Shown: piece by piece, positions 9,390-52,954 of the stretch
Position numbering within the stretch: the stretch's first letter is position 1
Layout: each line of letters opens with the position of its first letter
Assembly (NCBI GenBank): GCA_963924555.1
Contig: OZ004583.1
Coordinates: 1,335,501 to 1,399,500, forward strand
Reading direction: 5' to 3'
Origin: Crambe crambe
Taxonomy: Eukaryota > Porifera > Demospongiae > Poecilosclerida > Crambeidae
Length of the DNA: 64,000 bases
Made by a program: the position numbers and the translations under genes
The notes under the pieces: generated by a model
Database searches by the model: none
Told to the model about the DNA's origin: nothing
Seen by the model: the letters and a program-made list of their open reading frames with translations, nothing else

Positions 9390-9942
9390 TTATACAATCT
9401 CAGAGGTTGCATCAATGTTAGTCTCTTGAATTGGAATGACCATCATACGAACCGTGACTGGCATTGCAGGGGGTCTTTGAGGTATCAGAAGGGGTTTATA
9501 GGAAGGTAGCACTAGCTCACTTTTATCTGGTAGAGCTGTGATCACTTGCTCCGTCACACAGATCAGAGCTGCTGCTGCTGGAATGGGCATAGAGTAGATA
9601 GCTAGTTATGGGAGTTATTCATCGTACTTGTGAATGGAATAATAATTAACCTAAACAATTTTAGGGGATGTAGCTAGTTCCCATGTGTTGGTAGACAGGA
9701 GCAGAATTATGAGACGAAAGGTATGTATTATGAGTCACCAGGGGCATAGGTAAAGGGGAGCAGGAGCGTAGGAAAGGGGGGGTGGGGCCACTTTTTTACT
9801 ACTAACTTCGAAAACATGTACATATCTGTAGCATCACTGCTGAGCTTTGCCATAGTAGGTACAGACTATTATCTACTCTAGCGTTAATACCATGTTCATG
9901 CCTGCCTTTCTCTTGAACAGCAACTCCAAAAGCTGATTCCAT
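9390..9942 (-). CDS. Gene Y, copy A: two-exon small protein of 79 aa
   Basis: I do not recognise this protein. Exon 1 (9942-9891) starts with ATG, encodes MESAFGVAVQEKGRHEH and ends at a GT donor in phase 1. The intron ends at CCATTCCAG and exon 2 (9577-9390) encodes an Ala-rich start, [19 protein letters not shown], a Pro-rich middle and [13 protein letters not shown] before TAA. The two exons total 240 nt, exactly 80 codons. There is no signal peptide or clear membrane segment. The same gene structure occurs six times in the window, always between gene 1 3' sequence and SIN1 5' sequence. The last copy (52440-52954) shares an upstream region with intact SIN1. Consistent phase and splice sites in all six copies support a real gene. 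Confidence 0.65.
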
Positions 9943-10053
9943 CTTAATTAACTGCTCGATTGAATGGTTAGTACAACAGACGACACTCTAGACGACTGAT
10001 AGATATATTATAAGCACGGATTATTACTTGATATTGCAATGCACCAAATACTA

Positions 10054-10226
10054 CAGTGGAACTTCCAAGTTAAGGACACTTTGGGATCAGCCACTTTGTC
10101 CTTTGTAGAGAGGTTGTCCTTTTCTCATGGGCTAAAATTGTATTATATGCTATGGGAAAGGGGCCCGAAAGAGTATCCTTTGTCAGGAGGTTGTTGGAGG
10201 GTCCAAGGTTCCACATTTTATAGAAA
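10054..10226. mobile_element. pogo/Tigger-type MITE next to gene Y
   Basis: The sequence begins TACAGTGGAACTTCC and ends GGTTCCACATTTTA, imperfect inverted termini of the CAGTGGAACC type known from pogo/Tigger elements, which target TA. It has no coding capacity. Related copies occur in the same relative place at about 29175, 32450, 37705 and 44870, so it was present before the cassette was duplicated. Confidence 0.5.
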
Positions 10227-10701
10227 AACAAATGCACTGATTCACTATTACATCCTCTCCCTGAAATAACTAATGACTTGAGAAAGAGACTGCAGATTTA
10301 CTGCAGTGCTAGAGATAATATAACTACGTCAGCCAATACAAAAACTGACAATTCCATGTAGCTAATGTTTATAGCTATGCCGTTTAAGGGAACAAATATT
10401 GGTTCTATGAAGTGTGAGAAGGATTACAGTCCTATTAGCCACTACAGTCATATTTGTAGAAATAAACTTTAATTTTCATACAGTAATTTTATGCCCTAGT
10501 ATATTTCACTGTCATTAGCACAAGTCTTACCTCACGGATATTGTCAAAACAAGCAACCGTCTTTATTGCAGTGATGATGAGATCAGTTTTACAGGCCGAT
10601 CGTAACTTAGCCACTACAGTAGTACTTTGAACTAATCTCTAGGATTTTTTTAATAGGATCTGGAGCGCGCGTGGGAAATTGAATGCACCAACGTGACCTG
10701 A

Positions 10702-11679
10702 ATGGGGGGCCCGCGGGTGGGCCGGGTCTCGCGTAGCCGACCCTTTACCAACCGCGAAGGAAGGGCTAGACTAGACTTGGATAAGGAGATCAAGACAGAT
10801 CACAAGTTTTCCAAGGGTTCACTCAGGCTAAATCAAAGATAGTAAGTATGTTGCAGCTAACGAAAAGCTTTAGCTAGGTACGTGTTATTCTGGAGAAGAA
10901 ATGACCTGACCAAACAACATGAACTGACTGTATTAAAGCTGTGATGGGGAATTGTATCCACAGAGTACTGGCATCAGGGTCTATCATTCAAGCTTCCAAA
11001 TGAAGCTTTGTGAATGATTTTCTTTGTAGCAATCCATCTGCAGAGCATTTCCCCCGCCATGTAGCCAAGTCATATGACATCTATGCCAGCCCTTCCCTGC
11101 CAAGACGACCGCCACTCAAAAACAATGCTAGCATGTTCGAACTAAAAAAGTGAGTAACACAATGTCAAGTTATCAATATCTGTCCTTCATGTTGGCTGTC
11201 TTTCATGTTTATTCCTCTCTTGGTTCTTTTAGACGGTCGAAAAGAAGTCAAATGAAGAGTGTGGTTTTGGAATAATGATCAGAACGAAACCTGTAAGATA
11301 TCATTGTCTCTTTCATTCTACCTCGTGGTGACCACACCCCTATCTTGATCTGCAGCTGACCCTGAAGTCTTCACTCATCGGGAGATGGTGAAGAGACCGA
11401 AGAAAATGGGACCTTCCTTTCTCTCCATTCTCTTGGAGTATAACAAAATCCCATTCTTTGAGTATGGAAAATTCAACGGAGAAGTGAGTTTTATGAATAA
11501 ACCCTTTCCTTCTCTTGTTTCTCACTCTCCCCACCTCCTCCACTTCCTCCTTCTGCAGCATCCTCTATTCATTCTGCTCCACTCCTTTGCACCCCCAATT
11601 TGCAACTATTAATAGCTTTAGGCTAAAACACTACCAAAACAATTTTCTCATATCTGCAGAATCATGGAGTGGCTGTGAC
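10702..11679 (+). pseudogene. Truncated SIN1 copy 1 (exons 2-6, frameshifted)
   Basis: From 10774 this copies SIN1 exons 2 to 5 and the first 20 or so bases of exon 6, with splice sites kept. The normal first exon is missing. It is replaced by unrelated GC-rich sequence with an ATG at 10702 that reads in frame into [12 protein letters not shown]. In the fourth exon a T run at 11265-11268 has one extra T compared with intact SIN1 (GTGGTTTTGG versus GTGGTTTGG). This gives an immediate stop. At about 11679 the SIN1 exon 6 start is joined directly to gene 1 exon sequence, out of frame. The CRIM, Ras-binding and PH parts of SIN1 are absent. I read it as a duplication-derived pseudogene; transcription cannot be excluded. 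Confidence 0.85.
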
Positions 11680-13555: not shown

Positions 13556-13849
13556 TTGGAACCTAACTTGTATAATTTGGAATCTAACCAAGCATTGTTA
13601 TTAATTTGGAACCTAAACAAACATTAGAATAATAGTTATATTATTATCATGATTAATTTCATCTCTCTTTTGAGCAATGCACTCAACGACAGTGCTAAGG
13701 CTAGACCATGTAATGTCTATATACAGCTTCCAAGTCACTGCAAGGAATGATGTGATCCAAGTGAGATAATCACTGGGAGTCTCCCCTTGTTACCTGACAT
13801 ACATCAGGTGTGGAGGACTTACTCCAGCAGTTACTAGTTACATTCTTAT

Positions 13850-15831: not shown

Positions 15832-18800
15832 TTATACGACTTCAGAGGTAGCATCAATGTTAGTCTCTTGTATTGGAAAGACCATCATATAAACTGTGGC
15901 AGTGTTACTTGGCATTGCATGGATTCTTTGAGGTATCAGAAGGGGTTTGTAGGAAGGTAGCACTAGCTCACTTTTATCTGGTAGAGCTATAATCACTTGC
16001 TCTGTCACACATATCAGAACTGCTGCTGCTGGAACGGACATAAGTAGATAGCTATGGGAGTTATATGACACTATTTTGTTCATCGTACTATTGAATGGAA
16101 TAACAATATTTTAGGGCATGTACGTAGCTAGTTCCCATGTGTTGGTAGACAAGAGCAGAATTATGAGACAAAGGTAGCTATGTATTACGAGTCACCAGGA
16201 GGTCCAATATCATATAGGAGGTCCAGGAGGTCCAATATATGATATAGGAGGTCCGATATGATATAGCTAGTACGTAGGTCTGATTGATATGATATAGGGC
16301 ATAGGCATGGAGGGGGAGGGGGGGGGGGGGGGCACTTGCCCCTTACTTTTGTCGAGTAGTAGATAGACAGGAACCAATGTTAATAGTAAATAGAGAGCTA
16401 GCTAGTTGCACAACTCGAACTACTAACATGTCACATGGTGATACAACTGGTAAGGGATAACAGTTACACAAAACAATAATAATGATGTCTGGTAAAGTGT
16501 GTCCACCACATCACTCCCCTCCCAGTGACCCATTAGGGAACGAAATTTTCAAGATGCTGGGGCCAGCAGACACGACGTCCTGAACGAGTGGAACGACAAG
16601 GGCTGGTGGGTCCAGCAGATGGTGGGGAGAGATTGACTGGCTGTTGAGGGGAAACAGAGGACTGTTGTTCACTGGGGGGAGGAGTGGATTGCTCGGTGTG
16701 GGCTGGCTTGAGCCGGTCGAGAGAAACGGTATCATGTCGACCATTAATGTCCACGACATAGTACTTGTTTGTTCGTTGGAGCACCTTGTATGGCCCGTTG
16801 TAAGGCTGCTGCAGTGGTTTGCGAGTGGCGTCGTGTCGAATAAACACATGAGTACATGTAGACAGGGCTGGGCTGACATATGCTGGGCGCTGTGAAGTGC
16901 GAGAAGGTATGGCTTGCAACTGCTGCATTGCCGACTTCAGCTGTGTGATGAAGCTGGAGGGGTCTTCTGGGTCTTTTGACGGAGTGAAGAACTCGCCAGG
17001 GAGACGCAGACTGGTGCCATACACAAGCTCAGCAGCTGTGCAGTGGAGGTCTTCTTTCAAGGCAGTGCGTATGCCAAGTAACACCATGGGAAGTGAAATT
17101 GTCCACTGCTGGGAGTTGGTGTAAGTTTTCAGGGCTGCCTTCAGCTGGCGATGAAATCGCTCAATCAAACCATTTGCAATTGGATGATAGGCAGTGGTTC
17201 TGATTCGCTGGATGCCAAGGAGGCGTGTCAGCTGGTCCTAGAGGGCAGATTCAAACTGACGGCCACGATCAGTAGTCACCGTGGATGGGACGCCAAATCT
17301 AGAAATCCAACCACTCACGAAGGCATTGGCCACTGTTTCAGCGGTGATGTCTGAGATTGGGATGACTTCTGGCCAACGAGTGAAGCGGTCGATGCATGTA
17401 AGCATGTAGGTGAAGCCTTTGGATGGTGGGAGAGGGCCAACAATGTCGATGTGGATGCGGTCGAAACGAGCAGTGGGGGTGAGAAAGGTGGAGAGAGGTG
17501 TGACAGTGTGACGCTGTACTTTGGACGTCTGACATTGAAGACAAGAACGAGTCCACTTGCGTGAATCAGCTTTGATGTTTGGCCACACATAGCGAGCTGT
17601 TAGGAGCCGTTGTGTGGCACGGATCCCTGGATGAGAGAGGAAGTGGAGAGACTCAAAGACGGCATGGCGGAATTCTTTTGGGACAAGTGGGCGTGCGACT
17701 CCTGTTGAGGTGTCACATAAGATGGTTGAATCGGACATCGTCAGGGGGACGGCTTCAATCTTCAAGGATGAAGGTGAAGATCGCAGGCGGATGATGTCAT
17801 CATCTGTGTGCTGAGCTGCTGCCATGGCTCTGAAGTCGATCACAGGAGGAGAGCTGTCTAGGAGTGCATTGGTCTCAATCCTTGATAAGGTGTCAGCTGG
17901 GGTGTTGGCACTGCCCTTCACATGTCGGATGTCAGAAGTGAACTGGGTGATAAAGTCCAGGTGCCGTGCCTGACGAGGAGAATGCTTGTCTGAGCGAGTA
18001 TGCAAGGCGTAAGTCAGAGGTTTATGATCTGTGAGCACGTGAAAGTGACGTCCTTCGATGAAGTATCGGAAGTGTTTCACGGCCAGATACACTGCGAGGA
18101 GTTCACGGTCGAAAGTGCTATACCTCATTTCGGCTGGCTTGAGGACCTTGGAGAAGTAAGCAATTGGATGCCAGTGACCGTCAATAAATTGCTGCAGAAC
18201 AGCACCAACAGCAACATCAGAAGCATCTGTCATGATGCAGGTGGGTGCATCCAGTTTGGGGTGTGTTAGAAGCGTAGCATCAGCAAGAGCATCCTTGGTC
18301 TTGTTGAATGCTGACACAGCCTCGTCTGTCCATGTAAGGGTTGTGGACTTGTCCTTGGGATGTGAGAGCAGTTGGTTGAGGGGTTGCATGATGGCTGCGC
18401 AGTCTGGCAGGAACCGGCGGTAGAAATTCACCAGACCAATGAATTGGCGAAGTTTTCGCTGGGAGGTTGGCTGAGGAAAGGTGCGGATGGCCTGGACATT
18501 GTCCTCCAGGGGCTGGATACCATCGCTGCTGACATGATGGCCAAGAAAATCAAGTGAGGGAACACCAAAGATGCACTTGGTTGGGTTGATGGAGAGACCA
18601 TGGGTGGCCAAACGTTCCAGGACAAGACGTAAGTGCTGGACATGCTCCTCTGGACTGGTGCTGGCAACCAGGAGGTCATCTATATATCCAAAACAGAAAT
18701 CAAGGCCACGCAGAACCTGATCCATGAAACGTTGAAATGACTGACCTGCATTCCTGAGGCCAAATGGCATCCGTAGGAATTCAAATAACCCAAAGGGAGT

Positions 18801-21800
18801 GATGACAGCAGTTTTTGGAATGTCGTCAGGCTCCACAGGGATCTGGTGATATGCACGCACAAGGTCGATCTTGCTGAAGATTGTGGGACCATGAAGAGAG
18901 GCGGTGAAGTCCTGTATGTGAGGGATAGGATAACGGTCAGGGATGGTGCAGTTGTTGAGAGCACGATAGTCGCCACAGGGACGCCAGTCTCCTGGTGTTT
19001 TCTTTGGAACCATGTGCAGCGGAGATGCCCAGCAGCTTGAGGATGGACGGACTATACCCAGTTGGAGCATGTGCTCAAACTCACGCCGAGCTATCTTGAG
19101 ACGTTCTGGTGCAAGGCGACGAGCACGTGCAGACACAGGTGGTCCGGTGGTCCTGATGTGGTGGGTGACATTGTGCTGCACAGGGTGGTCTGTGATGTGT
19201 ACTTGTGTGACTGAAGGAAAATCACGGAGTATGGCGGCAAACTTGTCATCCGTGTCTCGGGGACATAGGGTAGGTCTGAGAGGAGGGTCAAGTGTAACAA
19301 TGCCCTGAATGCGGAGGTGGGTGACACTATCCAGGAGCTGGTGGTTCTTGACGTCCACCAGTAGACTGAAGTGGTGCAGGAAGTCAGCACCGAGGATGGG
19401 TCTCCGAACATCAGCTATGATGAAAGCCCAACAGAAAGTACGGCGGAGGCCGAGATTGAGAGTGAGAGACCGTGTGCCGAATGTAGGAATGGATGTGTTG
19501 TTGACAGCTTCAAGACGAAGACTGTGCTGGTGTTTACGATCAGTGCGTGAGGGGGGGGACAACACTAACATCAGCACCTGTGTCAACGAGAAAACGTAGG
19601 CCAGATATGCGGTCAGTGACATAGAAAAGCCGGCTGGGTGTTGAGCCAACAGTATTCGTTGCTGCTATTGTGTGAGCAGATCCCATGTCACAGGGAGGTT
19701 TGCACTTCCGGGCCGCATCACCATACTTTGAGTGGTACCAGCAGAGTGTCCTGGCAGTGGGAGAGGGAGAGGAGCGAGGTGTAGGAGAATGTCGAATGGG
19801 AGTGCGGGGTCTTTTTTTAAAAGACAAGGATTTTACCACTTCCTGGAGACGAGTGACCTCAGCACGCAGCTGGTCTACCTCTGAACTGAGTTGTGGTGAA
19901 GAGTTCTTGACAGCTGAGACTGATGGTGCAGCTACTTCCACAACCTTGTCAGCCAGTTGAGCGAGATTCTCTAAGCTGGTAGTGTCAGAAGTGGAGGCTA
20001 GAACCATGCGAACATTGCCTGGTAAACGTTGGAGGAAGAGCTCACGCAAAAATGCACTATCAGTTGTCTCTGCTCGTTCCCCTAAGAGTTGTTGCATCCT
20101 ACGTAGGAGCTGGGTGGGCTTTCGGTCACCCAACTCTTCTGTATTGAACAGCTGCTGGAGCTTCCGCTGTTCAGAGGCGGTGGTTCTTTTGATGAGCTGC
20201 TCCCGCAGGGAGTCATAAGGTCTGTCAGCAGGTGGCCGAAGGATCAGATCACGAACCTCAGTAGCAAACTCTGGTGCAAGGGAGGCAACAATGTAGTCGA
20301 ATTTTGTTCGTTGAACTGTGATGCCACGAGTGGTAAACTGTGCCTCAACTTGGGCAAACCACACCTCCGGATCAGCTGGCCAAAATGGCGGTAGTTTTAC
20401 ATTGACTGCTGCGACGGCTGTGGCTCGAGGAGGGGGGGTAGCGTCGTGCTCTGTGTCTGACATAGTTCGCTAACGTCGGGGGTCACCAATGTCGAGTAGT
20501 AGATAGACAGGAACCAATGTTAATAGTAAATAGAGAGCTAGCTAGTTGCACAACTCGAACAAGTATTATTTGGATAAAAAATTAGGCTAGGACCCATTTC
20601 TAAGGACCTAAATGACGTCATCTTTAATTGATTTAACCCCATACATTCGGATTAAACGAGCTACTTGCAGTGCTACTTGCAGCTACTCAATAAGCTACTG
20701 GACTAAAATCTAGCTAAGTGGCATGGATCCAGGCAAGTGTAATATATCTAATACATTGAGGAAGGAGTATGAAGTAACCTCAGAGCATCTCACTTACTTC
20801 CATCAATGTAAAAGAGTAATATAATATTCAAGAAGAAGAATGGTCAAAAAAAATTAAGGATCCATGGCCATTACTGTCCTAAACGATAAGGTGCATTCTG
20901 TTCCAATGGTCACCAGTATCCTCTATGCTAGTACAAACTATATATAATTTATATCACTATTCCTAGTTGAGGAACATTGTTTTCTAGAAGAGGAGTTGAT
21001 TAAGGACCCATAGCCGTTACTCTCCAAATAGATAAGGTGCGTTCTGTTCCAATGGTCACCAGTATCCTCTATGCTAGTACTAACTATATCTGCACTTGAT
21101 GATGTATATCTCTATTCCTAGTTGAGGAACATTGTTTACTAGAAGAGGGGCTGATTAAGGACCCATGGCTGTTACTCTTTGAAAAGATAAGGTGCATTCT
21201 GTTCCAATGGTCACCAGTATTCTCTATGCTAGTTAAAACTATATCTGCATTTGACGATTTATATCTCTATTCCTAGTTGAGGAACATTGTTTTCTAGAAG
21301 AGGGGTTGATTAAGGATCCATGGGCCGTTACTCTCCAAAAAGATAAGGTGTGTTCTGTTCAAATGGTCACCATTATCCTCTATGCTAGTACAAACTATAT
21401 CTGCACTTGATGATCTATATCTCTATTCCTAGTTGAGGAACATTGTTTACTAGAAGAGGGGTTGATTAAGGACCCATGGCTGTTACTATTCGAAAAGATA
21501 AGGTGCGTTCTGTTCCAATCGTCACCAGTATTCTCTATGCTAGTTAAAACCATATCTGCACTTGACGATTTATATTTCTATTCCTAGTTGAGGAACATTG
21601 TTTTCTAGAAGAGGAGTTGATTAAGGACCCATGGCCGTTACTCTCTAAAAAGATAAGGTGCGTTCTGTTCCAATGGTCAAACTATATCTGCATTTTAATG
21701 ATCTATGATCTATATCTCTATTCCTAGTTGAGGAACATTGTTTTCTATAAGAGGGGTTGATTAAGGACCCATGGCCGTTACTCTCCAAAAAGATAAGGTG

Positions 21801-24800
21801 TGTTTTGTTCAAATGGTCACCAGTACCGTCTTTGCTAGTACAAACTATATCTGCACTTGGTGATCTATATCTCTATTCCTAGTTGAGGAACATTGTTTTC
21901 TAGAAGAGGAGTTGATTAAGGACCCATGGCCGTTACTCTCCAAAAGGATAAGGTGTGTTCTGTTCAAATGGTCACCAGTATCCTCCATACCATATCTGCA
22001 CTTGATGATCTATATCTCTATTCCTAGTTGAGGAACATTGTTTTCTAGAAGAGGAGTTGATTAAGGACCCATGGCCGTTACTCTCCAAAAGGATAAGGTG
22101 TGTTCTGTTCAAATGGTCAGCAGTATCCTCCATACCATATCTGCACTTGATGATCTATATCTCTATTCCTAGTTGAGGAACATTGTTTTCTAGAAGAGGA
22201 GTTGATTAAGGACCCATGGCCGTTACTCTCCAAAAGGATAAGGTGTGTTCTGTTCAAATGGTCACCAGTATCCTCCATACCATATCTGCACTTGATGATC
22301 TATATCTCTATTCCTAGTTGAGGAACATTGTTTTCTAGAAGGAGTTGATTAAGGACCTATGGCTGTTACTCTCCAAAAAGATAAGGTATATTCTGTTTAA
22401 ATGGTCACCATTATCCTCTATGCTATATCTGCACTTGATGATCTATATTTCTATTCCTAGTTGAGGAACATTGTTTTCTAGAAGAGGAGTTGATTAAGGA
22501 CCCATGGCCGTTACTCTCCAAAAAGATAAGGTGCGTTCTGTTCAAATGGGCACCAGTACCCTCTATGCTAGTACGAATTATATCTGCACTTGATGATCTA
22601 TATCTCTCTTCCTAGTTAAGGAACATTGTTTTCTAGAAGAAGGGTTGATTAAGGACCCATGGTTGTTACTCTCCAAAAAGATAAGGTGTGTTTCGTTCGA
22701 ATGGTCACCATTATCCTCTTTGCTAGTACAAACTATATCTGCACTTGGTGATCTATATCTCTATTCCTAGTTGAGGAACATTGTTTTCTAGAAGAGGGGT
22801 TGATTAAGGACCCATGACCGTTATGTTCAGGTATGCTTGGTCACCAGTATCCTCTATGTTAGTACAAATCATCTGCACTTCATGATCTATCTTTCTATAT
22901 ATCTAGTTGAGGAACTCATGGCTGTTTTACTACTGAGCAGTGAGATGAGTGAATTCTTTGCCGCCTGATTGAAAAACTTCTGCCACTTCTGTGAAACTGG
23001 ATGCTGTTCATTTTTTTCTATGATTACTTGCTAGCAAGCAAATTCTATATCATGACTTCTTATTAATTCATCATGAAATTTAAGGAGTGATGTACATCAA
23101 GTAATGGGGTGGAAACATGTATGGTATTCTGGTGCCCTGAACTCTGGTTGGTAGCATCCAACGTCCCTGAACTCTGGTTGGTAGCATCCAACGTTCAGCA
23201 TGAAATGTGCAAGTAATGGGGTGGAAACGTGTATGGTAGTCTGGTGCCCTGAACTCTGGTTGGTAGCATCATGAAATGTAGCATTCAGCAGGTAATGGGG
23301 TGGAAACGTGTGGTGCCCTGAACTCTGGTTGGTAGCATCCAACGTTCAGCATGAAATGTAGCATTCAGCAAGTAATGGGGTGGAAACGTGTATGGTAGTC
23401 TGGTGCCCTGAACTCTGGTTGGTAGCATCCAACGTTCAGCATGAAATGTAGCATTCAGCAGGTGATGGGGTGGAAGCGTGTATGGTAGTCTGGTGCCCTG
23501 GTAGCATCCAACGTTCAGCATGAAATGTAGCATTCAGCAGGTGATGGGGTGGAAACGTGTATGGTAGTCTGGTGCCCTGAACTCTGGTTGGTAGCATCCA
23601 ACGTTCAGCATGAAATGTAGCATTCAGCAGGTGATGGGGTGGAAACGTGTATGGTAGTCTGGTGCCCTGGTAGCATCCAACGTTCAGCATGAAATGTAGC
23701 ATTCAGCAGGTGATGGGGTGGAAACGTGTATGGTAGTCTGGTGCCCTGGTAGCATCCAACGTTCAGCATGAAATGTAGCATTCAGCAGGTGATGGGGTGG
23801 AAACGTGTATGGTAGTCTGGTGCCCTGAACTCTGGTTGGTAGCATCCAACGTTCAGCATGAAATGTAGCATTCAGCAGGTAATGGGGTGGAAACGTGTAT
23901 GGTAGTCTGGTGCCCTGAACTCTGGTTGGTAGCATCCAATGTAGTCAGCATTCAAGTGCATGGGTACACCATGTATTCATCAAAGGTATGTAATTAAGAG
24001 TACATTTCTGCTGTTAATTAACATAATCATTTTGTGTGTGTGTGTTTTTTTGTTGTTGTTTTTTTTTGGAGTCAGATTTCTCAGTAGCTGGTGGTAGAGA
24101 AGTTCTCTTCAGGGATAATTTCTGAATCAGCAAGTCTTGATCATTGTAGCATTTTATACGATTGTACCTCCTCCTATTATTGCACATACAGGGAAGCTCA
24201 ACTCCATCTGAGTGTCCTGGGCACGAGAAAGAGATATAGATCATCAAGTGCAGATATGGTTTGTACTAGCATAGAGGATACTGGTGACCATTGGAACAGA
24301 ACACACCTTATCTTTTTGGAGAGTAATGGCCATGGGTCCTTAATCAACTCCTTTTCTAGAAAACAATGTTCCTCAACTAGGAATAGAGATATAGATCATC
24401 AAGTGCAGATATAGTTTGTACTAGCGTATAGGATACTGGTGACCATTTGAACAGAACACACCTTATCTTTTTGGAGAGTAACGGCCATGGGTCCTTAATC
24501 TTTTAGAAATAATGTTCCTCAACTAGAAATAGAGATATAGATCATCAAGTGCAGATATAGTTTGTACTAGCGTAGAGGATACTGGTGACCATTTGAACAG
24601 AACACACCTTATCTTTTTGGAGAGTAACAGCCATGGGTCCTTAATCAACCCATCTTCTAGAAAACAATATTCCTCAACTAGGAATAGAGATATAGATCAT
24701 CAAGTGCAGATATGGTTTTAACTAGCATAGAAAACACTGGTGACAATTGGAACACAACACACCTCATCTTTTTGGAGAGTAACAGCCATGGGTCCTTAAT

Positions 24801-27092
24801 CAACCCATCTTCTAGAAAACAATGTTCCTCAACTAGGAATAGAGATATAGATCATCAAGTGCAGATATGGTTTTAACTAGCATAGAAAACACTGGTGACA
24901 ATTGGAACATAACACACCTTATCTTTTTGGAGAGTAACGGCCATGGGTCCTTAATCAACCCCTCTTCTAGAAAATAATGTTCCTCAACTAGGAATAGAGA
25001 TATAGATCATCAAGTGCAGATATGATTTGTACTAGCATAGAGGATACTGGTGACCATTGGAACAGAACACACCTTATCTTTTTGGAGAGTAATAACCATG
25101 GGTCCTTAATCAACCCTTCTTCTAGAAAACAATGTTCCTCAACTAGGAATAGAGATATAGATCATCAAGTGCAGATATACTTCGTACTAGCATAAAGGAT
25201 AATGGTGACCATTGGAACAGAACGCACCTTATCTTTTTGGAGAGTAACGGCCATGGGTCCTTAATCAACTCCTCTTCTAGAAAACAATGTTCCTCAACTA
25301 GGAATAGAGATATAGATCATCAAGTGCAGATATGATTTGTACTAGCATAGAGGATACTGGTGACCATTGGAACAGAACACACCTTATCTTTTTGGAGAGT
25401 AATAACCATGGGTCCTTAATCAACCCTTCTTCTAGAAAACAATGTTCCTCAACTAGGAATAGAGATATAGATCATCAAGTGCAGATATACTTCGTACTAG
25501 CATAGAGGATAATGGTGACCATTGGAACAGAATGCACCTTATCTTTTGGGGGAGTAACGGCCATGGGTCCTTACTCGACTCCTCTTCTAGAAAACAATGT
25601 TCATATAGTTTGTACTAGCATAGAGGATAATGGTGACCATTGGAACAGAATGCACCTTATCTTTCGGAGAGTAACGGCCATGGGTCTTTAATCAACTCCT
25701 CTTCTAGAAAACAATGTTCCTCAACTAGGAATAGAGATATAGATCATCAAGTGCAGATATAGTTTGTACTAGCATGGAGGGTACTGGTGACCATTGGAAC
25801 AGAACACACCTTATCTTTTTGGAGAGTAACAACCATGGGTCCTTAATCAACCCTTCTTCTAGGAAACAATGTTCCTCAACTAGGAATAGAGATATAGATC
25901 ATCAAGTGCAGATATACTTCGTACTAGCATAGAGGATACTGGTGACCATTGGAACAGAACACACCTTATCTTTTTGGAGAGTAACAACCATGGGTCCTTA
26001 ATCAACCCTTCTTCTAGAAAACAATGTTCCTCAACTAGGAATAGAGATATAGATCATCAAGTGCAGATATACTTCGTACTAGCATAGAGGATAATGGTGA
26101 CTATTGGAACAGAACGCACCTTATCTCTTTGGAGAGTAACGGCCATGGGTCCTTAATCAACTCCTCTTCTAGAAAACAATGTTCCTCAACTAGGAATAGA
26201 GATATAGATCATCAAGTGCAGATATAGTTTGTACTAGCATAGAGGATACTGGTGACCATTGGAACAGAACACACCTTATCTTTTTGGAGAGTAACAACCA
26301 TGGGTCCTTAATCAACCCTTCTTCTAGAAAACAATGTTCCTCAACTAGGAATAGAGATACAGATCATCAAGTACAGATATACTTCGTACTAGCATAGAGG
26401 ATACTGGTAACAATTGGAACATAACGCACCTTATCTTTTTGGATAGTAATGGCCATGGGTCCTTAATCAACCCCTCTTCTAGAAAATAATGTTCCTCATA
26501 GAGATATAGATCATCAAGTGCAGATATAGCTTATACTAGCATAGAGGATACCGGTGACCATTTGAACAGAACACACCTTACATTGATGGAAGTAAGTGAG
26601 ATGCTCTGAGGTTACTTCATACTCCTTCCTCAATGTATTAGATATATTACACTTGCCTGGCTCCATGCCACTTAGCTAGATTTTCATCCAGTAGCTTATT
26701 GAGTAGCTGTAAGTAGCACTGAGTAGGACTGAGTAGCTCGTTTAATCCGAATGTATGGGGTTAAATCAATTAAAGATGACGTCATTTAGGTCCTTAGAAA
26801 TGGGTCCTAGCCTAAAATTCTATCAGTATAGTACCTGACTCGAACTACTAACATGTCACATGGTGATACAACTGGTAAGGGATAACAGTTACACAAAACA
26901 ATAATAATGATGTCTGGTAAAGTGTGTCCACCACACTTTTTTACTACTAAAAACTGTATGCAGCATCACTGCTTTGTCATTGATATAAAGTTGTCAATCC
27001 ATAATTATTATATAATTATATATATAATTATCTTCCCTAGCATTAATACCATGTCCTTTCTCTTGAACAGCAACTCTGAAAGCTGATTCCAT
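15832..27092 (-). CDS. Gene Y, copy B: intact frame with an 11-kb transposon-filled intron
   Basis: Exon 1 (27092-27050) encodes [14 protein letters not shown] and ends in phase 1. Exon 2 (16028-15832) encodes the Ala-rich start, [18 protein letters not shown] and the end [12 protein letters not shown] before TAA. Together they make 240 nt, an intact 79-aa frame despite a 9-nt deletion in exon 1 and a 9-nt net gain in exon 2 relative to copy A. A Gypsy element (16350-26935), itself carrying a foldback element, lies in the intron, which is about 0.3 to 0.6 kb in the sister copies. Whether so large an intron is still spliced cannot be judged from sequence. Confidence 0.55.
16350..16510 (-). repeat. 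3' LTR of the Gypsy-type element, 161 bp
   Basis: The LTR begins TGTCGAGTAGTAG and ends GTCCACCACA on the plus strand and matches the 5' LTR base for base. It is unusually short for a Gypsy-type LTR. Confidence 0.95.
16511..16524 (-). promoter_or_regulatory. Polypurine tract of the Gypsy-type element
   Basis: On the minus strand the sequence immediately before the 3' LTR reads CTGGGAGGGGAGTGA, a purine run in the position expected for the plus-strand primer. Confidence 0.7.
16533..19649 (-). CDS. pol: pol of the Gypsy-type element, with an in-frame stop in integrase
   Basis: The frame runs from 19649 to an in-frame TAG at 17240-17238 and resumes in the same frame to 16533, about 1040 codons. 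In order it shows the downstream half of the aspartic protease, reverse transcriptase ([21 protein letters not shown] with the YIDD active site), RNase H ([29 protein letters not shown]), the HHCC zinc module of integrase (HPGIRATQ, then CLQCQTSK) and the integrase core ([18 protein letters not shown]). The TAG falls between the second catalytic Asp and the catalytic Glu of the DD35E triad, so the core is cut. The C-terminal part ([10 protein letters not shown] onward) is otherwise open. The element probably cannot integrate by its own integrase, although its LTRs look recent. Confidence 0.93.
19540..20463 (-). CDS. gag: gag of the Gypsy-type element, running into the protease
   Basis: A 307-codon frame begins 27 bp inside the 5' LTR. 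It contains a Gag-like core ([28 protein letters not shown]), a coiled stretch near residue 200, a basic region and a CCHC-like knuckle ([18 protein letters not shown]). It ends in the start of the aspartic protease with [13 protein letters not shown]. The frame is then lost at a run of eight C (plus-strand G run at 19550-19560), and protease continues in the pol frame. A +1 shift, or loss of one C, would join the two. This may be programmed frameshifting or a homopolymer indel. Confidence 0.92.
20474..20489 (-). promoter_or_regulatory. Primer binding site, tRNA-Trp-like
   Basis: Directly inside the 5' LTR the minus strand reads TTGGTGACCCCCGACG. Its complement, CGTCGGGGGTCACCA, matches the 3' end of animal tRNA-Trp plus CCA as I recall it, apart from one extra G in the G run. 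The tRNA assignment rests on memory of that tRNA. Confidence 0.6.
20960..22920 (+). repeat. Left-arm tandem array, unit about 155 bp
   Basis: About 13 copies of a 155-bp unit, each beginning near GTTGAGGAACATTG and including TTAAGGACCCATGGCCGTTAC and GATAAGGTGCGTTCTGTTC. Copies differ by substitutions and by loss of the GCTAGTACAAAC segment. The array is mirrored in the right arm. Confidence 0.93.
23080..23945 (+). repeat. Central tandem array, units of about 79 and 91 bp
   Basis: Roughly ten units contain ATGGGGTGGAAACGTGTATG and TTCAGCATGAAATGTAGC. The long form carries AACTCTGGTTG and the short form lacks it. Both forms alternate, which suggests unequal exchange. The reverse strand gives repetitive but meaningless open frames. 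Confidence 0.92.
24235..26590 (-). repeat. Right-arm tandem array, reverse complement of the left array
   Basis: About 15 units of the same 155-bp repeat as the left arm, in opposite orientation (TCAACTAGGAATAGAGATAT, then GCAGATATAGTTTG). Some neighbouring units form higher-order pairs, for example around 25010-25500, which points to duplication of blocks of two units. Confidence 0.93.
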
Positions 27093-29120: not shown

Positions 29121-29584
29121 AGTTGACTGATAGATATAAGCATGGATTGTTACTTGGCGTTGTAACACACCAAATACTATAGTGGAACCTCCAAGTAAAG
29201 GACTCTTTGGGATCAGCCACTTTGTCCTTTGTAGAGTCCTTTTCTCAGAGGTTAAAATTAGCTATATGGGAAATAATCATATACACCTTTTGATGGTACA
29301 CTGACTATAACAGAAGGACCAAAGAATAGCTATCACTCGTGAGGAAGGTGACACTGCAGATTTTCCTATTTTTATACGGGCACATTCAACATTCCCATAT
29401 GGTTGATAAATGATATTCCTAACTTGTTATTTCAACTACCAAGTAGACAGCTATCTATAAAAATCAGACACTAACAATATATCAGAAAAGTCAGTTTAGT
29501 GAGTCGGTTCAACAATGAATGGAGTCAGTATGATGAGAGATCAAGTTTCTTTAGCTACCTAAATGCATAGACTCAATCAACCAA

Positions 29585-29660
29585 GCATGACACACAGGAA
29601 TTTTTATACAATCTCAGAGATTGCATCAATGTTAGTTTCTTGAATTGGAATGACCATCAA
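29585..29660 (-). pseudogene. Fragment of gene Y exon 2
   Basis: TTTTTATACAATCTCAGAGATTGCATCAATG and the following bases match the 3' end of gene Y exon 2, and the homology stops after about 55 bp. A second fragment of the same kind lies at 38065-38115. Both mark places where duplicated blocks were joined by deletion. Confidence 0.75.
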
Positions 29661-29794
29661 ATGTAACCATTACAGTCCTATTAGCCACTACAGTCGTATT
29701 TGTAGAAACATTTTTCATACAGTAATTTTATGCCCTATAGTAAAATACTGTCATTAGCACAAGTCTTACCTCACAGATATTGTCAAAATTCTCA

Positions 29795-31821: not shown

Positions 31822-32341
31822 TTATACAATCTCAGAGGTTGCATCAATGTTAGTTTCTTGAACTGGAATGACCATCATACGAACCAGAAGGGGTTTGTAG
31901 GAAGGTAACACTAGCTCACTTTTATCTGGTAGAGCTGTGATCACTTGCTCCGTCACACAGATCAGAGCTGCTGGTGCTGGAATGGGCATAGAGTAGATAG
32001 CTAGTTATGGGAGTTATTCATCGTACTTGTGAATGGAATAATAATTAACCTAAACAATTTTAGGGGATGTAGCTAGTTCCCATGTGTTGGTAGACAGGAG
32101 CAGAATTATGAGACAAAAGGTATGTATTATGAGTCACCAGGGGCATAGGTAAAGGGGAGCAGGAGCGTAGGAAAGGGGGGGTGGGGCCACTTTTTTACTA
32201 CTAACTTCGAAAACATGTATATATCTGTAGCATCACTGCTGAGCTTTGCCATAATAGGTACAGACTATTATCTACTCTAGCGTTAATACCATGTTCATGC
32301 CTGCCTTTCTCTTGAACAGCAACTCCAAAAGCTGATTCCAT
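31822..32341 (-). CDS. Gene Y, copy C: 68 aa
   Basis: Exon 1 (32341-32290) is like copy A. Exon 2 (31976-31822) has lost 33 nt encoding the Pro-rich middle, exactly 11 codons, so the total of 207 nt stays in frame and ends before the same TAA. Donor and acceptor match the other copies. The surrounding 9300-10560 sequence is closely copied here (9390-10380 against 31822-32780), so this is the nearest relative of copy A. Confidence 0.55.
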
Positions 32342-33584: not shown

Positions 33585-34664
33585 ATGAGATCTAGGAGCG
33601 CGAGCACGAGCGTGGGAAATATAGATGAGGTGCAGGGAAATATAGATGAGGTGCAGGGAAATATAGATGAGGTGCAGGGAAATATAGATGAGGTGCAGGT
33701 AGGAGGGTCTCGCCGACCCTTTACCAACCGCGAAGGAAGGGCTAGACTAGACTTGGATAAGGAGATCAAGACAGATCACAAGTTTTCCAAGCGTTCACTC
33801 AGGCTAAATCAAAGATAGTAAGTATGTTGCAGCTAACGAAAAGCTTTAGCTAGGTACGTGTTATTCTGGAGAAGAAATGACCTGACCAAACAGCATGAAC
33901 TGACTGTATTAAAGCTGTGATGGGGAATTGATCCACAGAGTACTGGCATCAGGGTCTATCATTCAAGCTTCCAAATGAAGCTTTGTGAATGATTTTCTTT
34001 GTAGCAATCCATCTGCAGAGCATTTCCCCCGCCATGTAGCCAAGTCATATGACATCTATGCCAGCCCTTCCCTGGCAAGACGACCGCCACTCAAAAACAA
34101 TGCTAGCATGTTCGAACTAATGGAAAAAAGTGAGTAACACAATGTCAAGTTATCAATATCTGTCCTTCATGTTGGCTGTCTTTCATGTTTATTCCTCTCT
34201 TGGTTCTTTTAGACGGTCGAAAAGTAGTCAAATGAAGAGTGTGGTTTTGGAATAATGATCAGAACGAAACCTGTAAGATATCATTGTCTCTTTCATTCTA
34301 CCTCGTGGTGACCACACCCCTATCTTGATCTCCAGCTGACCCTGAAGTCTTCACTCATCAGGAGATGGTGAAGAGACCGAAGAAAATGGGACCTTCCTTT
34401 CTCTCCATTCTCTTGGAGTATAACAAAATCCCATTCTTTGAGTATGGAAAATTCAACGGAGAAGTGAGTTTTATGAATAAACCCTTTCCTTCTCTTGTTT
34501 CTCACTCTCCCCACCTCCTCCACCTCTTCCTTCTGCAGCATCCTCTATTCATTCTGCTCACTCCTTTGCACCCCCAATTTGCAACTATTAATAGCTTTAG
34601 GCTAAAACACTACTTTAACAAAACAATTTTCTCATATCTGCAGAATCATGGAGTGGCTGTGACA
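33585..34664 (+). pseudogene. Truncated SIN1 copy 2 with a new 21-bp-repeat start
   Basis: From 33750 the sequence follows SIN1 exons 2-5 and the start of exon 6, as in copy 1. It has the same extra T in the fourth exon (34245-34248) and the same out-of-frame join to gene 1 at about 34664. Copies 1 and 2 therefore descend from one fusion event. The substituted 5' end differs: four 21-bp repeats (33618-33700) encode VQGNIDE units, and an ATG at 33585 reads through them in frame into [12 protein letters not shown]. The shared frameshift still ends translation early, so the copy is a pseudogene. Confidence 0.85.
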
Positions 34665-36898: not shown

Positions 36899-37604
36899 TT
36901 ATACAATCTCTGAGGTTGCATCAATGTTAGTTTCTTGAATTGGAGTGACTATCATATGAACCAGAAGGGGTTTGTAGGAAGGTAGCACTAGCTCACTTTT
37001 GTCTGGTAGAGCTGTGATCACTCGTTTTGTCACACAGATCAGAGCTGCTGCTACTGCTGGAATGGACATAGAGTAGATATGGGAGTTACTGTATACGACA
37101 CTTAATTTTATTTGTTCATTGTATTTGTGAGTGCATGGAATAACGATTAACCTAAACAATTTTAGGGCATGTACGTAGCTAGTTCCCATGTGTTGGTAGA
37201 CAAGAGCAGAATTATGAGACAAAGGTAGCTATGTATTACGAGTCACCAGGAGGTCCAATATCATATAGGAGGTCCAATATGATATAGGAGGTCCGATATG
37301 ATATAGTACGTAGGTCTGATTGATATGATATAGGGCATAGGCATGGGGGCAGGGGGGGCACTTGCCCCTCACTTTTTTACTACTAACTTCGAAAACTGTA
37401 TGTAGCATCACTGCTTTGTTGTTGATATGAAGTTGTCAACCCATAATTATAGGTACAGACTTAGCCTCGTTCCCAGGCCTATTTTTTTTTTACAGACTAT
37501 ATAATTATATGCATATTATCTACCCTAGCATTAATACCATGTCCTTCCTCTTGAACAGCATTAATACCATGTCCTTCCTCTTGAACTCTGAAAGCTGATT
37601 CCAT
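36899..37604 (-). CDS. Gene Y, copy D: about 64-74 aa
   Basis: Exon 1 starts at 37604 (MESAFRVQEEGH). A 30-bp tandem duplication here gives two alternative GT donors, ending the exon at 37568 or 37538. Both keep phase with exon 2 (37056-36899). Exon 2 lacks the same 33 nt as copy C and carries one extra codon. The stop codon is unchanged. All changes are multiples of three. Confidence 0.5.
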
Positions 37605-38217
37605 CTTGACTGCTTGATTGAATAATTTACCACAGGTGATCACACTCTAGTTGACTGATAGATATAAGCATGGATTGTTACTTGGTGTTGTAACACACCA
37701 AATACTACAGTGGAACCTCCGAGTAAAGGACTCTTTGGGATCAGCCACTTTGTCCAGTTCTTTTCTTAGAGGTTAAAATTATATGGAAAATAATCATATA
37801 TACTACACCTTTTGATGGTACACTGACTATAACAGAAGGACCAAAAGAATATCACTCATGAGGAAGGTGGCACTGTTTTTATACGGGCACATTTGATATT
37901 CCCATAATGGTTGATAGATGATATTCCTAACTTATTATTTCAACTACCAAGTAGACATATCTAATATCAGAAAAGTCGATTCAACAATGAATGGAAGTAC
38001 TTACCAGTCAGTTTCTTTAGCTACTTAAATGCATAGACTCAATTAGCCAGCATGACACACAGTAATTTTTATACAATCTCAGAGATTGCATCAATATTAG
38101 TTTCTTGAATTGGAGAACCATTACAGTCCTATTAGCCACTACAGTCGTATTTGTAGAAACATTTTTCATACGGTAATTTTATGCCCTAGTAGCTATAGCT
38201 AGTATAATCATTAGCGT

Positions 38218-40049: not shown

Positions 40050-40053
40050 GGCT

Positions 40054-41310
40054 AGCTATCACTTGAAGACTTGGATAAGGATAAGGAGATCAAGACAGAT
40101 CACAAGTTTTCCAAGCGTTCACTCAGGCTAAATCAAAGATAGTAAGTATGTTGCAGCTAACAAAAAGCATTAGCTAGGTACGTGGCCAAAACATGATGTA
40201 AAGAACTGACTGTATTAAAGCTGTGATGGGGAATTGTACCCACAGAGTACTGGCATCAGGGTCTATCATTCAAGCTCCCAGTTTAGTCCTTAGTGAATGA
40301 TTTTCTTTGTAGCAATCCATCTGCAGAGCATTTCCCCGCCATGCAGCCAAGTCATATGACATCTAGACAACCGCCACTCAAAAACGATACCAACATGTTT
40401 GAACTAATGGAAAAAAAGTGGAAACACAATGTCACTCATTATCAAGTTATCAATGGCTGTCCTTCATGTTTATTCCTTCTTTAGATGGTCAAAAAGCAGT
40501 CAAGTGAAGAGTGTGGTTCAGAACGAAACCTGTAAGATATCATTATCTCTTTCATTCCACCTTGGTAACCACACCCCCTCCTATTTTGACCTGCAGTTGA
40601 CCCTGAAGTCTTTTGCTCATCAGGAGGTGATGAAGAGACCGAAGGAAACGGGACCTTCCCTTCTCTCTACTCTCTTGGCAGAGTATAACAAAATCTACAC
40701 CAAATTCAACGGAGGAGTGGGTTATTTCTCTCCCCACTATTCATTCTGCTCCACTCCTTCGTACTTCCCTGCTCCCCCCTCCCCCTAATATGCAACTGTA
40801 GCTTTAGGCTAAACAAAACAAACAAAAACAAAATCATGTGATCTTTCTCGTATCTGCAGAATCATGGAGTGGCTGTAACCAACACGTACTACATATTCCT
40901 TTCAGTATCAAAGGTCAGTCAGTTGATGGGTTTTGAAAGTTGAATTCAAAAGTGAAAGTGAATACAATTAGACTTCACATCTGCTAAGCTGTCATTCTAA
41001 ATGTTCTGTTGTTCTTAGACTCCCCAGCAGCCCTTGAAAATTACAGTTATCTGTAAGTTCATCATCTCACTCTTTTTTTTCTTTCTTTTTTTTTTTGCAT
41101 CAGATACAGCCACTGTGAGTGATCTGATAGGACTCACTCTGTGGAAGTACATCGAAGAGACGAAAGAACTGTCAAGAAGGTAAGTTTAATCACAAGGGGC
41201 AAATCCTCTAGATCCTAGATGGCTGCAAGATGTGACAATGGCATCAACCCCCCAAAACAACAACAAATAAACAAACAAATAAGCTATGTATTTTGCACCT
41301 TTGACCCTTC
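40054..41310 (+). pseudogene. Truncated SIN1 copy 3 (exons 2-8)
   Basis: This copy extends further into SIN1 than copies 1 and 2. It contains exons 2 to 8 and the start of intron 8, before joining gene 1 sequence at about 41332. A trace of exon 1 (GACACTCTTTTATC, 38480-38493) survives on the far side of the Ginger-like insertion, so that element landed in intron 1. Exon 2 has a 6-bp duplication (GGATAAGGATAAGG). Exon 4 lacks 15 nt in frame. Exon 8 lacks one A (AAAGAACTGTC), which shifts the frame inside the CRIM-coding region. The fusion point differs from copies 1 and 2, so it arose separately. Confidence 0.85.
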
Positions 41311-41331
41311 GACCCTCCTGATGCTGTACAG

Positions 41332-44240: not shown

Positions 44241-44757
44241 TTATACGACTTCAGAGGTAGCATCAATGTCAGTCTCTTGTATTGGAAAGACCATCATATG
44301 AACTGTGATAGTGTTACTTGGCATTGCATGGGGTCTTTGAGGTATCGGAAGGGTGTTGGAAGGTAGGACTAGCTCACTTTTATCTGGTAGAGCTGTGATC
44401 ACTTGCTCTGTCACACATATCAGAGCTGCTGCTGCTGGAATAGAGTGGATATAGCTATGGGAATTTTGTTCATCTTACTTGTGAATGGAATAACAATATT
44501 TTAGGGCATGTATATATAACTAGTTCCCATGTGTTGGTAGACAGGAGCAGAATAATGAGACGAAGGTATGGATTATGAGTCACCAGGGGCATAGGAAAAG
44601 GGGGGTGGGGGGATTGCCATTGATATAAAGTGGTCAACCCATAATAGGTACAGACTATTATTATCTATACCCTAGCATTAATACCATGTCCTTCCTCTTG
44701 AGCAGCATTAATACCATGTCCTTCCTCTTGAACAGCAACTCCAAAAGCTAATTCCAT
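44241..44757 (-). CDS. Gene Y, copy E: 78 aa
   Basis: Exon 1 (44757-44715) encodes MELAFGVAVQEEGH. A duplicated donor segment lies just downstream, as in copy D. Exon 2 (44434-44241) encodes the Ala-rich start, [12 protein letters not shown] and the end NIDATSEVV before TAA. The total is 237 nt, in frame. The copy lies left of the large transposon mosaic. Confidence 0.55.
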
Positions 44758-49679: not shown

Positions 49680-50245
49680 TGCATCGAGCAACAATGGACA
49701 ATCTTCCCATCGCTCTAAGAAGAGGAAAAAGGAAGTGAACTATCGTGAAGCAGATCATTTGAAGCTGCCCAGAGCTACTAGAATCAGTACGAGGATGAAA
49801 TAGAAGACTTAGAGCCTGAATGTAGTCCTGCTACATCTTCTGTGTATCACCCTTACTCACTCTACAACAACTTGCGTATTAAAGTGAAACAGGCACTTAC
49901 TTGTGGACGTAAGAGTTCACCTCTAGTTAAGATCGTCATGGCCTTTGACTTAGTTCAGTTCAATGGTGGATTGAAAACTGTAGGTATGCCAAGGTTCAGG
50001 GTATTCAACACTATAGCACTACAAAGATTTAATTCCATGGCTTGGAAGCTACTGGCACTTTCGCGGATTAAATGCCAATGGTGATTATGGATTTGTGGAA
50101 TTGGACACAGTCGACTTTTCTCTGCAAAAGTCAAGATCACTGATAGAGTACCTTCCATCAAGTGATGAACAGTCTTGCAAATTGTCAACCGACACTGGAT
50201 TTAGTCTTTCTTTTTGGTTTGTATGTTGTTATGGAACAGCTGCTT
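49680..50245 (+). pseudogene. Possible coding remnant, unassigned
   Basis: Three short open stretches follow each other in different frames: KKRKKEVNYREADHLKL, then EDEIEDLEPECSPATSSVYH to about 50083, then VELDTVDFSLQKSRSLIEYL to a TAA near 50247. Composition looks protein-like, and the basic-then-acidic start resembles a DNA-binding N-terminus, but I recognise no family and cannot define splice sites. It could equally be chance. Confidence 0.25.
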
Positions 50246-50304
50246 AATTCATTTGGAAAAGATCAGAAATTTTTTTATGAAAGATAAGAAACACTGAACA
50301 ACAA

Positions 50305-50314
50305 TGAATTGTGT

Positions 50315-50345
<31 letters not shown>

Positions 50346-50350
50346 TGGGG
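50305..50350. repeat. (GT)n followed by a long G run
   Basis: A short GTGTGT run leads into about 18 G with one T. Similar G runs occur at 309-322, 16315-16332 and 54451-54467. This is a likely slippage site and prone to sequencing error. Confidence 0.85.
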
Positions 50351-50719
50351 TGGAGAAGTTGGGTGGCTTCATCTCAAAAATGCAACTAAACGGTGGTGGT
50401 GTGGGAGAGGGACATTGTTCTTGCAGAGTATGGCATGCATGGTGTGGTATAGTAACAGACATCGTAACAGTTATCTATTATGTAATCATTTATTGTTATG
50501 TAACACCGGTATAATTATTGTTTGTGGTTTATTATCTTTGTATAAAAGCTAGTGTGTGTTCATTTTTAAGTATTGAGATAGTATTCATGTTTGATAATAA
50601 GTTCTATTGAGGTTACTACATTTGAGATTACTACACATGGATACATTAACTTGAAGTGTTGACGTCAGCAGTATTATCAGTATTGGATTCCTTCAAAAAT
50701 ATGGCAGGATTGCTTGTTG

Positions 50720-52230
50720 TGCCCAATCTGCTTACAAACACTGCATGTGTGTACATTCTTATATTCTTCGAGGTCATCCAGATGGTTTCATTTTTCCAAT
50801 AGCTGCTTCAATGCCTCCTGCTCCCTGTGGTTAGATGCATGCTGAAAGTGTATCGTTGTCAGGTCATTCAATTTTTCAAGACCTTGTTGCGAAAACTTCG
50901 AAATGTTACCATATAACGTCAAAAATTCAGAAAGGTGCATAGCAAAAGCATGCATATAGGGCGTTACATCTTTTGTTTGATAGATTGAAGTAAATGATCT
51001 TTACTAGCTACGACAATCAAAATCAGCACTCAGATTTTCCAAGCTCTTTATCAAATCAAAAAATTCCTTCCATAATTTTTGAAGTTGAACTCTCGTCTGT
51101 AAGTCAGGAAATAACACAATATTCTGGAACAGTCTATTCTTTTCAGGTCCAGTAAGATCTCGCCATGTAACACTCTTTGATGCATACCATTTAAATCGGA
51201 TTTTACACTTAAAATCGACATATGCATCCACATTTTTCCCACTCTCTTCTGTACCTTTTTTCCTCACCACAGTTTGAATGCCGTCTAATGTCCTCAAATC
51301 CCTAGTCAATAAATTGATAAGCACATCTGCAATTCTCAAAAATAAATGGAGAGTGTCGATCACCACATGATCTAGCGGAATGAAGGAAAAGAGTGGAGGT
51401 TAGCAACAATTGTAGTGATTTTTGCTTGTTTTAGCAAGCTGACATTTCTGAGAAATTTCCTTGACAGTCCTCGCTCCTTTCTCTAAGTCAGTCAATGACC
51501 ATATCATGCTCATGTTCCAGCGTTGACTCCTAGGGCACTTACACCAAATACAAGCGAAGTCACATGTAGCTGCCTCTATTCCACTAACACACGCAAGAAA
51601 TTTCCAGTCTCCCCCAAGGAAGTATTCTATTTTGTACACTCTGTCTTCAACAGTAATGACTTCCAAATCCTTAGCTTCCTCAATTATATCTTTTAGGCCT
51701 GCTGCAAGATCATTATAATCTTCAGAAACCTTTAAAATTGTGATCGTATGATTTCCTTTCACAGAGCATTCTTGCCCACCCTCTTCAAGAATAGTGAAAG
51801 CGAAATTTACAACACTAAGTCCTCTGGCAATTTGTGTGCCATCACCTTTTAACTTCACCCGGATAGTACTTGGAATTGGCTTCTGTGACTTACTGCACAA
51901 CTTAGAAAGCTCAGCAATATGAAAGGCTAGACGCTTTCGCAATTTTTGTTGTACTCCTACAATATTATTGGGAGAATTTGATATTTCATACTGTGAATTG
52001 AAAGTACGAACCACCTTATTTACTTGAAAGGAGGAGGGGAGATTGGACAACATGCTCATTTCATGGTAAGCTTCATTGGACACACAGAACTTATCTTTTA
52101 CATACAGAGCAGAGTGAACAGGCATTTGTGGTGCATCAGAGGTTCTATCCTTCCCATAGTAATTATGGCTGTTGTCCCCTGTATCAACATTTTCTAGTTC
52201 AACTGTATGAGGTTTAACGTTCAACTTCAC
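50720..52230 (-). pseudogene. Decayed transposase-like gene (GGDWKFLA / CIWCKCP family)
   Basis: On the minus strand one frame runs from the ATG at 52230 to about 50720, broken only by in-frame stops (about 51400, a double stop near 51004, and one near 50790). It contains MLSNLPSSFQVNK, KLKGDGTQIARGLSVVNFAF, YFLGGDWKFLACVSGIE, CDFACIWCKCPRSQRW, HVVIDTLHLFLRIADVLINL, LTGPEKNRLFQNI, KFSQQGLEKLND and a terminal CSVCKQIGHNKQSC knuckle. I recall uncharacterised proteins with the same motif order in cnidarian genomes. The conserved Asp (GDG), Asp (VID) and Glu (GLE) could be a DDE triad, which is inference. Decay by point mutations only suggests it is fairly recent. Confidence 0.7.
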
Positions 52231-52439
52231 AAAAACTCAATGCACCATGAATTCTTTCAGCGAGAACCTTTTTTTGTTATGCTGCTGTTGCCTGCTATAA
52301 TCAGTCCAAGATTTTGAAGCTGAGCCTCTACTATTTTCCGAACAACCGGTTTTCATTCTGACTATAGCTTTAGATTGCTCCTTGGTTACCTAAACTACAG
52401 TATGGATACATAGACCCAACATGACACACAGTAATTTAG

Positions 52440-52954
52440 CTATACAACCTCAGAGGTTGCATCAATGTTAGTCTCCTGAATTGGAATGACCATCATACGA
52501 ACCATGGCTGGCATTGCAGGGGGTCTTTGAGGTATCAGAAGGGGTTTGTAGGAAGGTAGCACTAGCTCACTTTTATCTGGTAGAGCTGTGATCACTTGCT
52601 CTCGATCTCTCACACAGATTAGAGCTGCTGCTGCTGGAATGGACATACATAGCTATGGGATTATATGACACTTAATTTTATTTGTTCATGGTACTTGTGA
52701 ATGGAATAAAAAGGTATGTATTATGAGTCACTGAGCAGGGGCAAAGGAAAAGGGGGGGGGCAGGGGGAAGTCCCCACTTTTTACTACTAACTTTGAAAAC
52801 TGTATACAATCTGTAGCATCACTGTTTTACTGAGCTTTGTCATTGATATAAAGTGGTCAACCCATAATAGGTACAGACTGTATTATTATCTACTCTTAAT
52901 ACCATGTCCATGCCTGCCTTCCTCTTGAACAGCAACTCCGAAAGTTGATTCCAT
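52440..52954 (-). CDS. Gene Y, copy F: 81 aa, head-to-head with intact SIN1
   Basis: Exon 1 (52954-52903) encodes MESTFGVAVQEEGRHGH and exon 2 (52633-52440) the Ala-rich start, [20 protein letters not shown], the Pro-rich middle and NIDATSEVV. The total is 246 nt, 82 codons with the stop. It has a 6-nt in-frame insertion (the RD pair) relative to copy A. Its ATG is 79 bp from the SIN1 ATG on the other strand. Because it adjoins the only full SIN1, this may represent the ancestral neighbour relation. Function unknown. Confidence 0.65.

Follow-up and report, generated by a model that had tools for sequence, protein, structure and literature searches.

Six jointly open copies of a short two-exon frame, a candidate young gene, beside SIN1 in the sponge Crambe crambe

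Six open copies of the candidate gene Y

In a stretch of 64,000 nucleotides (nt) from the demosponge Crambe crambe (assembly GCA_963924555.1, contig OZ004583.1, positions 1,335,501 to 1,399,500; hereafter the window, in whose own coordinates positions are given), a short two-exon frame, here designated gene Y, occurs in six full copies (Y1 to Y6), all of which are uninterrupted on the minus strand; two truncated fragments lie outside this count. The start context AAGATGG, the phase 1 donor CATG/GTATTAA, the acceptor TTCCAG, and the stop codon are kept in all six; the preliminary description of this DNA had reported a kept ATG, phase 1 donor, acceptor, and stop at the same six positions. The proteins that it put at 64 to 81 amino acids (aa) are, as predicted here, 79, 79, 68, 74, 88, and 81 aa long for Y1 to Y6, respectively.

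We give about an even chance to the reading of Y as a small gene or proto-gene that is young, restricted to this species, and located beside the promoter of SIN1. Accepting this, Y6 would be transcribed away from SIN1, out of a common promoter region of 79 nt, and an exon 1 of 43 to 73 nt would be spliced to an exon 2 of 155 to 197 nt, giving a peptide of 68 to 88 aa that is probably disordered and lacks an evident signal sequence. From a presumed parental copy, local duplication would have spread segments holding Y together with pieces of SIN1 and of a second neighbor, gene 1, and weak selection against frame loss, perhaps on behalf of some function, would have kept the six copies open while the truncated SIN1 and gene 1 passengers decayed. 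The more specific proposal that a gene is being born here, with a species-specific protein arising from divergent transcription at the SIN1 promoter and amplified to six open copies, is less likely than not; under it, the in-frame indels would be the sole strong mark of selection so far.

Indels and the jointly open frame

All eight indels in the exons of Y were multiples of three, compared with 12 of 41 in the adjoining upstream, intron, and downstream DNA (Fisher P = 2.8e-4; this P value and the next are uncorrected for the choice of this frame). One of the eight, a leading 3-nt gap in Y4, was added by hand and sits in a run of CAG, a place where a 3-nt change might come from slippage alone; without it, the count is 7 of 7 (P = 6.8e-4). 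Exon 1 on its own has three indels, all in frame, and exon 2 has five in-frame indels. The length differences of 9, 33, 3, and 6 nt that the preliminary description had noted are borne out as real and as multiples of three, as is the duplication of 30 nt. Moreover, when four duplicated blocks (6, 4, 5, and 4 copies) were scanned on both strands, the longest jointly open frame was exon 2 (168 to 210 nt), followed by one of 114 to 135 nt.

Neutral evolution with indels was simulated, and 3.2 kb was searched on both strands for joint frames of 168 nt or more. At the rate of the exon itself, such a frame arose in 36 of 676 runs (16 of 400 plus 20 of 276), and 4 of the 676 runs combined this length with at least five indels. 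None of 300 runs reached it at 1.9 times the exon rate, which is approximately that of the intron, and 2 of 300 did so with more indels per substitution; the longest indels were omitted from the simulated length list, which favors the null. In substitution-only simulations of the whole Y coding sequence, all six copies were stop free in 330 (kappa of 2) and 496 (kappa of 5) of 2,000 runs at the exon rate and in 78 and 128 of 2,000, respectively, on the noncoding tree. Preservation of the Y frame is probably, if modestly, more than chance.

The duplicated segments carry, besides Y, about exons 2 to 5 of SIN1 (in our numbering) and gene 1, and both passengers are damaged. The 10.8-kb and the 33.8-kb SIN1 fragments carry the same 1-nt insertion, which puts a TAA stop in exon 4; in the second, exon 3 is also 1 nt short at its end. 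The fragment at 40.1 kb has lost 1 nt and 20 nt from exon 3 (jointly in frame) and gained 1 nt in exon 5. Three of the five aligned copies of gene 1 exon b have indels of lengths not divisible by three, although the frame of gene 1 is itself unproven. A seeming CAG-to-TAG stop in two SIN1 copies was ruled out, being a missense change in the SIN1 frame.

These results bear on the chief alternative, which we consider a serious possibility if somewhat short of an even chance, that Y makes no protein and is noncoding DNA duplicated recently with its neighbors, its frame having stayed intact because the duplications are recent, because copies exchange sequence, and by luck; Y6 would then perhaps correspond to antisense transcription upstream from the promoter of SIN1. 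Y would have come to notice because its frame was open, and the exon-rate runs do yield a joint frame of this length at a modest frequency. However, the wholly in-frame exon indels, the rarity of runs that combine length with indels, the lack of any such run at the 1.9-fold rate, and the damage to neighbors within the same duplications all argue against it.

Search for relatives of Y

Single-sequence and profile searches of Y against 5.8 billion proteins listed only two entries, P0001 and P0002 (E values of 0.29 to 6.9), both apparently from the same species as the window; the profile search that the preliminary description had proposed thus brought up no wider relatives in this database. Because the search requires shared words of five residues, short and diverged relatives may be missed. 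As a control, the C2H2 zinc-finger gene that the window also holds, which we take to be of the KLF type, was searched in the same way and listed 61 proteins, 60 besides the one that was 100% identical over the compared part, and the database does contain KLF relatives, with identities of up to 62%. Therefore, Y is either absent from the database or too short and diverged for detection. In addition, the Pfam scan of Y gave only a chance-level hit to Talin_VBS2 (E = 0.19), a sequence search of PDB with a mixed query gave no match, and neither supported a resemblance to ligand-gated channels; a tblastn search against phage records was also without match, which says little for an animal genome.

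Like Y, both P0001 and P0002 start from an ATG of the exon 1 kind, and P0001 equals Y3 there. Read by eye, P0001 fits Y3 (32250 to 32341) only when the 8 nt after AATAGTCT are omitted, a length too short for an intron; P0002 seems to have no stretch similar to these 8 nt. The exon-1-like P0002 (MEPAFGV...) matches no copy of this genome at more than 75 to 78% identity, perhaps reflecting a copy-number or haplotype difference.

Within the genome itself (143 Mb in 119 contigs), a similarity search that scores only the best candidates found Y matches in this window and, elsewhere on its contig, at five loci (4.54, 4.595, 4.599, 5.226, and 5.231 Mb). The distal loci hold 72 to 88 bp of exon 2 at 74 to 84% identity, with up to 95% in the last 42 to 46 bp, and AACATTG marks a sharp edge of the core common to them and Y. 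Much longer flanks, absent at Y, are common to four of the five, and two of these four are tandem (L023). The exon 2 frame is kept in four of the five, and a 10-nt deletion is present in one. Changes in the core among the 11 copies number 12, 19, and 18 at codon positions 1, 2, and 3, so this segment bears no mark of coding constraint, a result that favors the view that Y encodes no protein. The core would be explained by a copied DNA segment; a gene family at the distal loci was ruled out by the 10-nt deletion and the even spread of changes over codon positions. Similarly, a high-copy repeat or mobile element is unlikely, the matches in this best-candidate search being confined to the window and these five loci. 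As for an RNA element, no Rfam match was found in the window at gathering thresholds, and five folded pieces showed no clear gain in stability over shuffles (z scores of -1.6 to +1.1).

Arrangement beside SIN1

Y6 and SIN1, a subunit of mTORC2, lie head to head, with start codons 79 nt apart. They may form a bidirectional-promoter pair, for which the divergent transcription starts would have to lie within 1 kb. The gap contains GCGCATGC, which we take to be an NRF-1-like motif. This SIN1 copy is apparently the intact parent of the fragments; its frames exceeded the Pfam cutoff for the Ras-binding profile and stayed below those for CRIM and PH. For the region from the gap through SIN1 exon 1, no second copy was among the genome matches obtained.

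Y resembles orphan (taxonomically restricted) genes and proto-genes in its short frame, its weak signal of selection, the adjoining existing promoter, and the failure to find relatives outside the species. A gene predicted from sequence, it goes beyond a lone orphan frame in having six local copies with in-frame indels only. SIN1 (MAPKAP1) is both the immediate neighbor of Y6 and a passenger of the duplications, yet it is on the strand opposite to Y, and no relation between the two was seen in the Pfam scan of Y. The pair is also similar, in its close spacing and intervening motif, to the head-to-head genes with bidirectional promoters of Amphimedon queenslandica, as presented in PMC4773876, with the shared promoter of the pair here being a predicted one.

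As a young orphan gene, Y would be nothing out of the ordinary; what would be unusually informative is its setting. If Y is translated, the array comes with built-in controls, namely, open copies, damaged passengers, and a copy at a recognizable promoter, and would be a good place to ask when selection starts on a newborn frame. If it is not, Y usefully cautions that a frame open in all copies, next to broken neighbors, can mimic selection.

Observations weighing against a young gene

A number of observations weigh against Y being a young gene, the first group of which concerns substitutions. The ratio of nonsynonymous to synonymous rates (dN/dS, or omega), estimated with a custom codon likelihood, was 0.66 with kappa free (P = 0.15) and 0.61 to 0.64 with kappa fixed at 1.5 to 3 (P = 0.08 to 0.12). 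Exon 2 alone gave 0.58 to 0.60 (P = 0.09 to 0.11), one other tree gave 0.66 (P = 0.14), and the first alignment gave 0.65 and 0.59. Pairwise counting put dN/dS at 0.21 to 0.55 for 14 of the 15 pairs and at 1.52 for the other. The preliminary description had held that a ratio near 1 would speak against selection; the whole-frame estimates and most pairs are below 1, but omega is not significantly so. Changes counted by parsimony at codon positions 1, 2, and 3 numbered 7, 4, and 4 in exon 1, 14, 12, and 18 in exon 2, and 21, 16, and 22 overall, without a third-position excess (chi-square P = 0.53 for exon 2 and 0.59 overall). Exon 2 does change less than the intron (0.23 to 0.28 versus 0.35 to 0.37 changes per aligned site; tree length of 0.26 versus 0.50); however, one intron segment has 3 to 5 changes per 40 columns versus 5 to 12 in exon 2. 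This conserved segment (9672 to 9738 in Y1, and its equivalents) is found in five copies and is mostly absent from Y6.

Moreover, the coding and noncoding trees of Y disagree. Y2 is closest to Y5 in exon 2 and to Y4 in the intron, so exchange between Y copies is likely and the tree-based tests are therefore approximate. The even codon positions, the nonsignificant omega, the intron segment conserved as well as the exon, and the mosaic look of the copies speak for the noncoding reading. For the selection on a small protein suggested by the preliminary description, the in-frame-only indels and damaged neighbors speak in favor and these substitution results against, and such selection would not count as established from the sequence comparisons. 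The accompanying claim that the neighbors decay while Y stays open holds with regard to the damage described above, but exons 3 and 5 of the 10.8- and 33.8-kb SIN1 copies are open over almost their full length, the 6, 3, and 9 nt that they have lost all being in frame, and counting by eye puts 6 of 11 indel events of the SIN1 exon copies in frame; thus, the contrast between Y and SIN1 is less sharp than claimed.

The second group concerns the gene model and its promoter. The model of Y2 requires an intron of ∼11 kb, and Gypsy-like frames (16.5 to 20.5 kb; an element recognized by eye from its open frames) lie between its exons. In the donor, GTATTA, position +5 is not the G seen in five SIN1 donors picked by eye, and P0001 and P0002 continue through the proposed donor instead of being joined to exon 2. 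AATAAA was found in none of the six copies within 600 nt of the stop, and ATTAAA was found in three, which is about the background level. Structure prediction of the exon 2 frame from an input of six sequences was poor (predicted local distance difference test [pLDDT] score of 51.5). The promoter next to Y6 did not turn up beside the other copies: the matches of Y1, Y2 exon 1, Y3, and Y5 to Y6 run only a few bases beyond the Y start codon on its upstream side, and for Y4 that search gave none.

The weak donor and the read-through of P0001 would also suit a coding unit composed of exon 2 alone, unspliced and starting from an ATG(C/T)CC just upstream of the acceptor, with a product of 55 to 69 aa. 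This ATG is in frame in five of the six copies, and the joint open frame runs upstream past the acceptor; Y5, however, lacks such an ATG, and the wholly in-frame indels of exon 1 speak against this model, which we consider unlikely. Less probable still is that exons 1 and 2 are the start of a longer gene in which the GTATAA or GTATAG at the "stop" is a splice donor. GTATA(A/G) is indeed kept there in all six copies, but most copy pairs are alike for no more than ∼110 nt past the stop (Y2 and Y5, alike for ∼550 nt, are the exception), changes per site climb to 1.2 to 1.6 just past it, and no third exon common to the copies was seen, the next common block being gene 1, with apparent frames on the other strand.

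Features of the window

The features of Y and SIN1 are listed in Table 1.

TABLE 1 Coordinates of gene Y, SIN1, and related features
Feature	Position	Strand	Remark
Y1 exon 2, with stop	9390..9577	-	Core common to distal loci, 9413-9493
Y1 intron stretch	9672..9738	-	From segment conserved at least as well as exon 2 among copies
Y1 exon 1, proposed	9891..9942	-	
SIN1 fragment copy	10773..11541	+	1-nt insertion and TAA in exon 4
Y2 exon 2	15832..16028	-	
Y2 exon 1	27050..27092	-	11,021 nt upstream of Y2 exon 2
Truncated seventh Y fragment	29580..29670	-	3' end of exon 2
Y3 exon 2	31822..31976	-	33-nt loss relative to Y1
Y3 exon 1	32290..32341	-	Database protein P0001 starts here and continues past proposed donor
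Other SIN1 fragment copies	33755-34525 and 40079-40879		
Y4 exon 2	36899..37056	-	33-nt loss, 3-nt gain
Y4 exon 1	37538..37604	-	30-nt duplication with second donor, 6-nt loss
Truncated eighth Y fragment	38047..38114	-	3' end of exon 2
Y5 exon 2	44241..44434	-	3-nt loss; without in-frame ATG just upstream of acceptor
Y5 exon 1	44685..44757	-	30-nt duplication
Y6 exon 2	52440..52633	-	6-nt gain
Y6 exon 1	52903..52954	-	Head to head with SIN1
Gap between Y6 and SIN1 start codons, 79 nt	52955..53033	.	GCGCATGC at 52989
SIN1 (mTORC2 subunit), apparently intact parent	53034..57131	+	End is that of the open frame, not a mapped gene end
Distal loci (L020-L024)	G000:C5 4538322-4599049 and 5226198-5231459		3-4 Mb away

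Gene 1 is located at 6560 to 6823 and 7222 to 7551, with further copies, among which no intact parent was recognized; it had no convincing Pfam match, and the genome matches of its exon a are inside this window only. Inside the would-be intron of Y2, two inverted arrays of a 155-nt satellite occupy positions 20789 to 26581.

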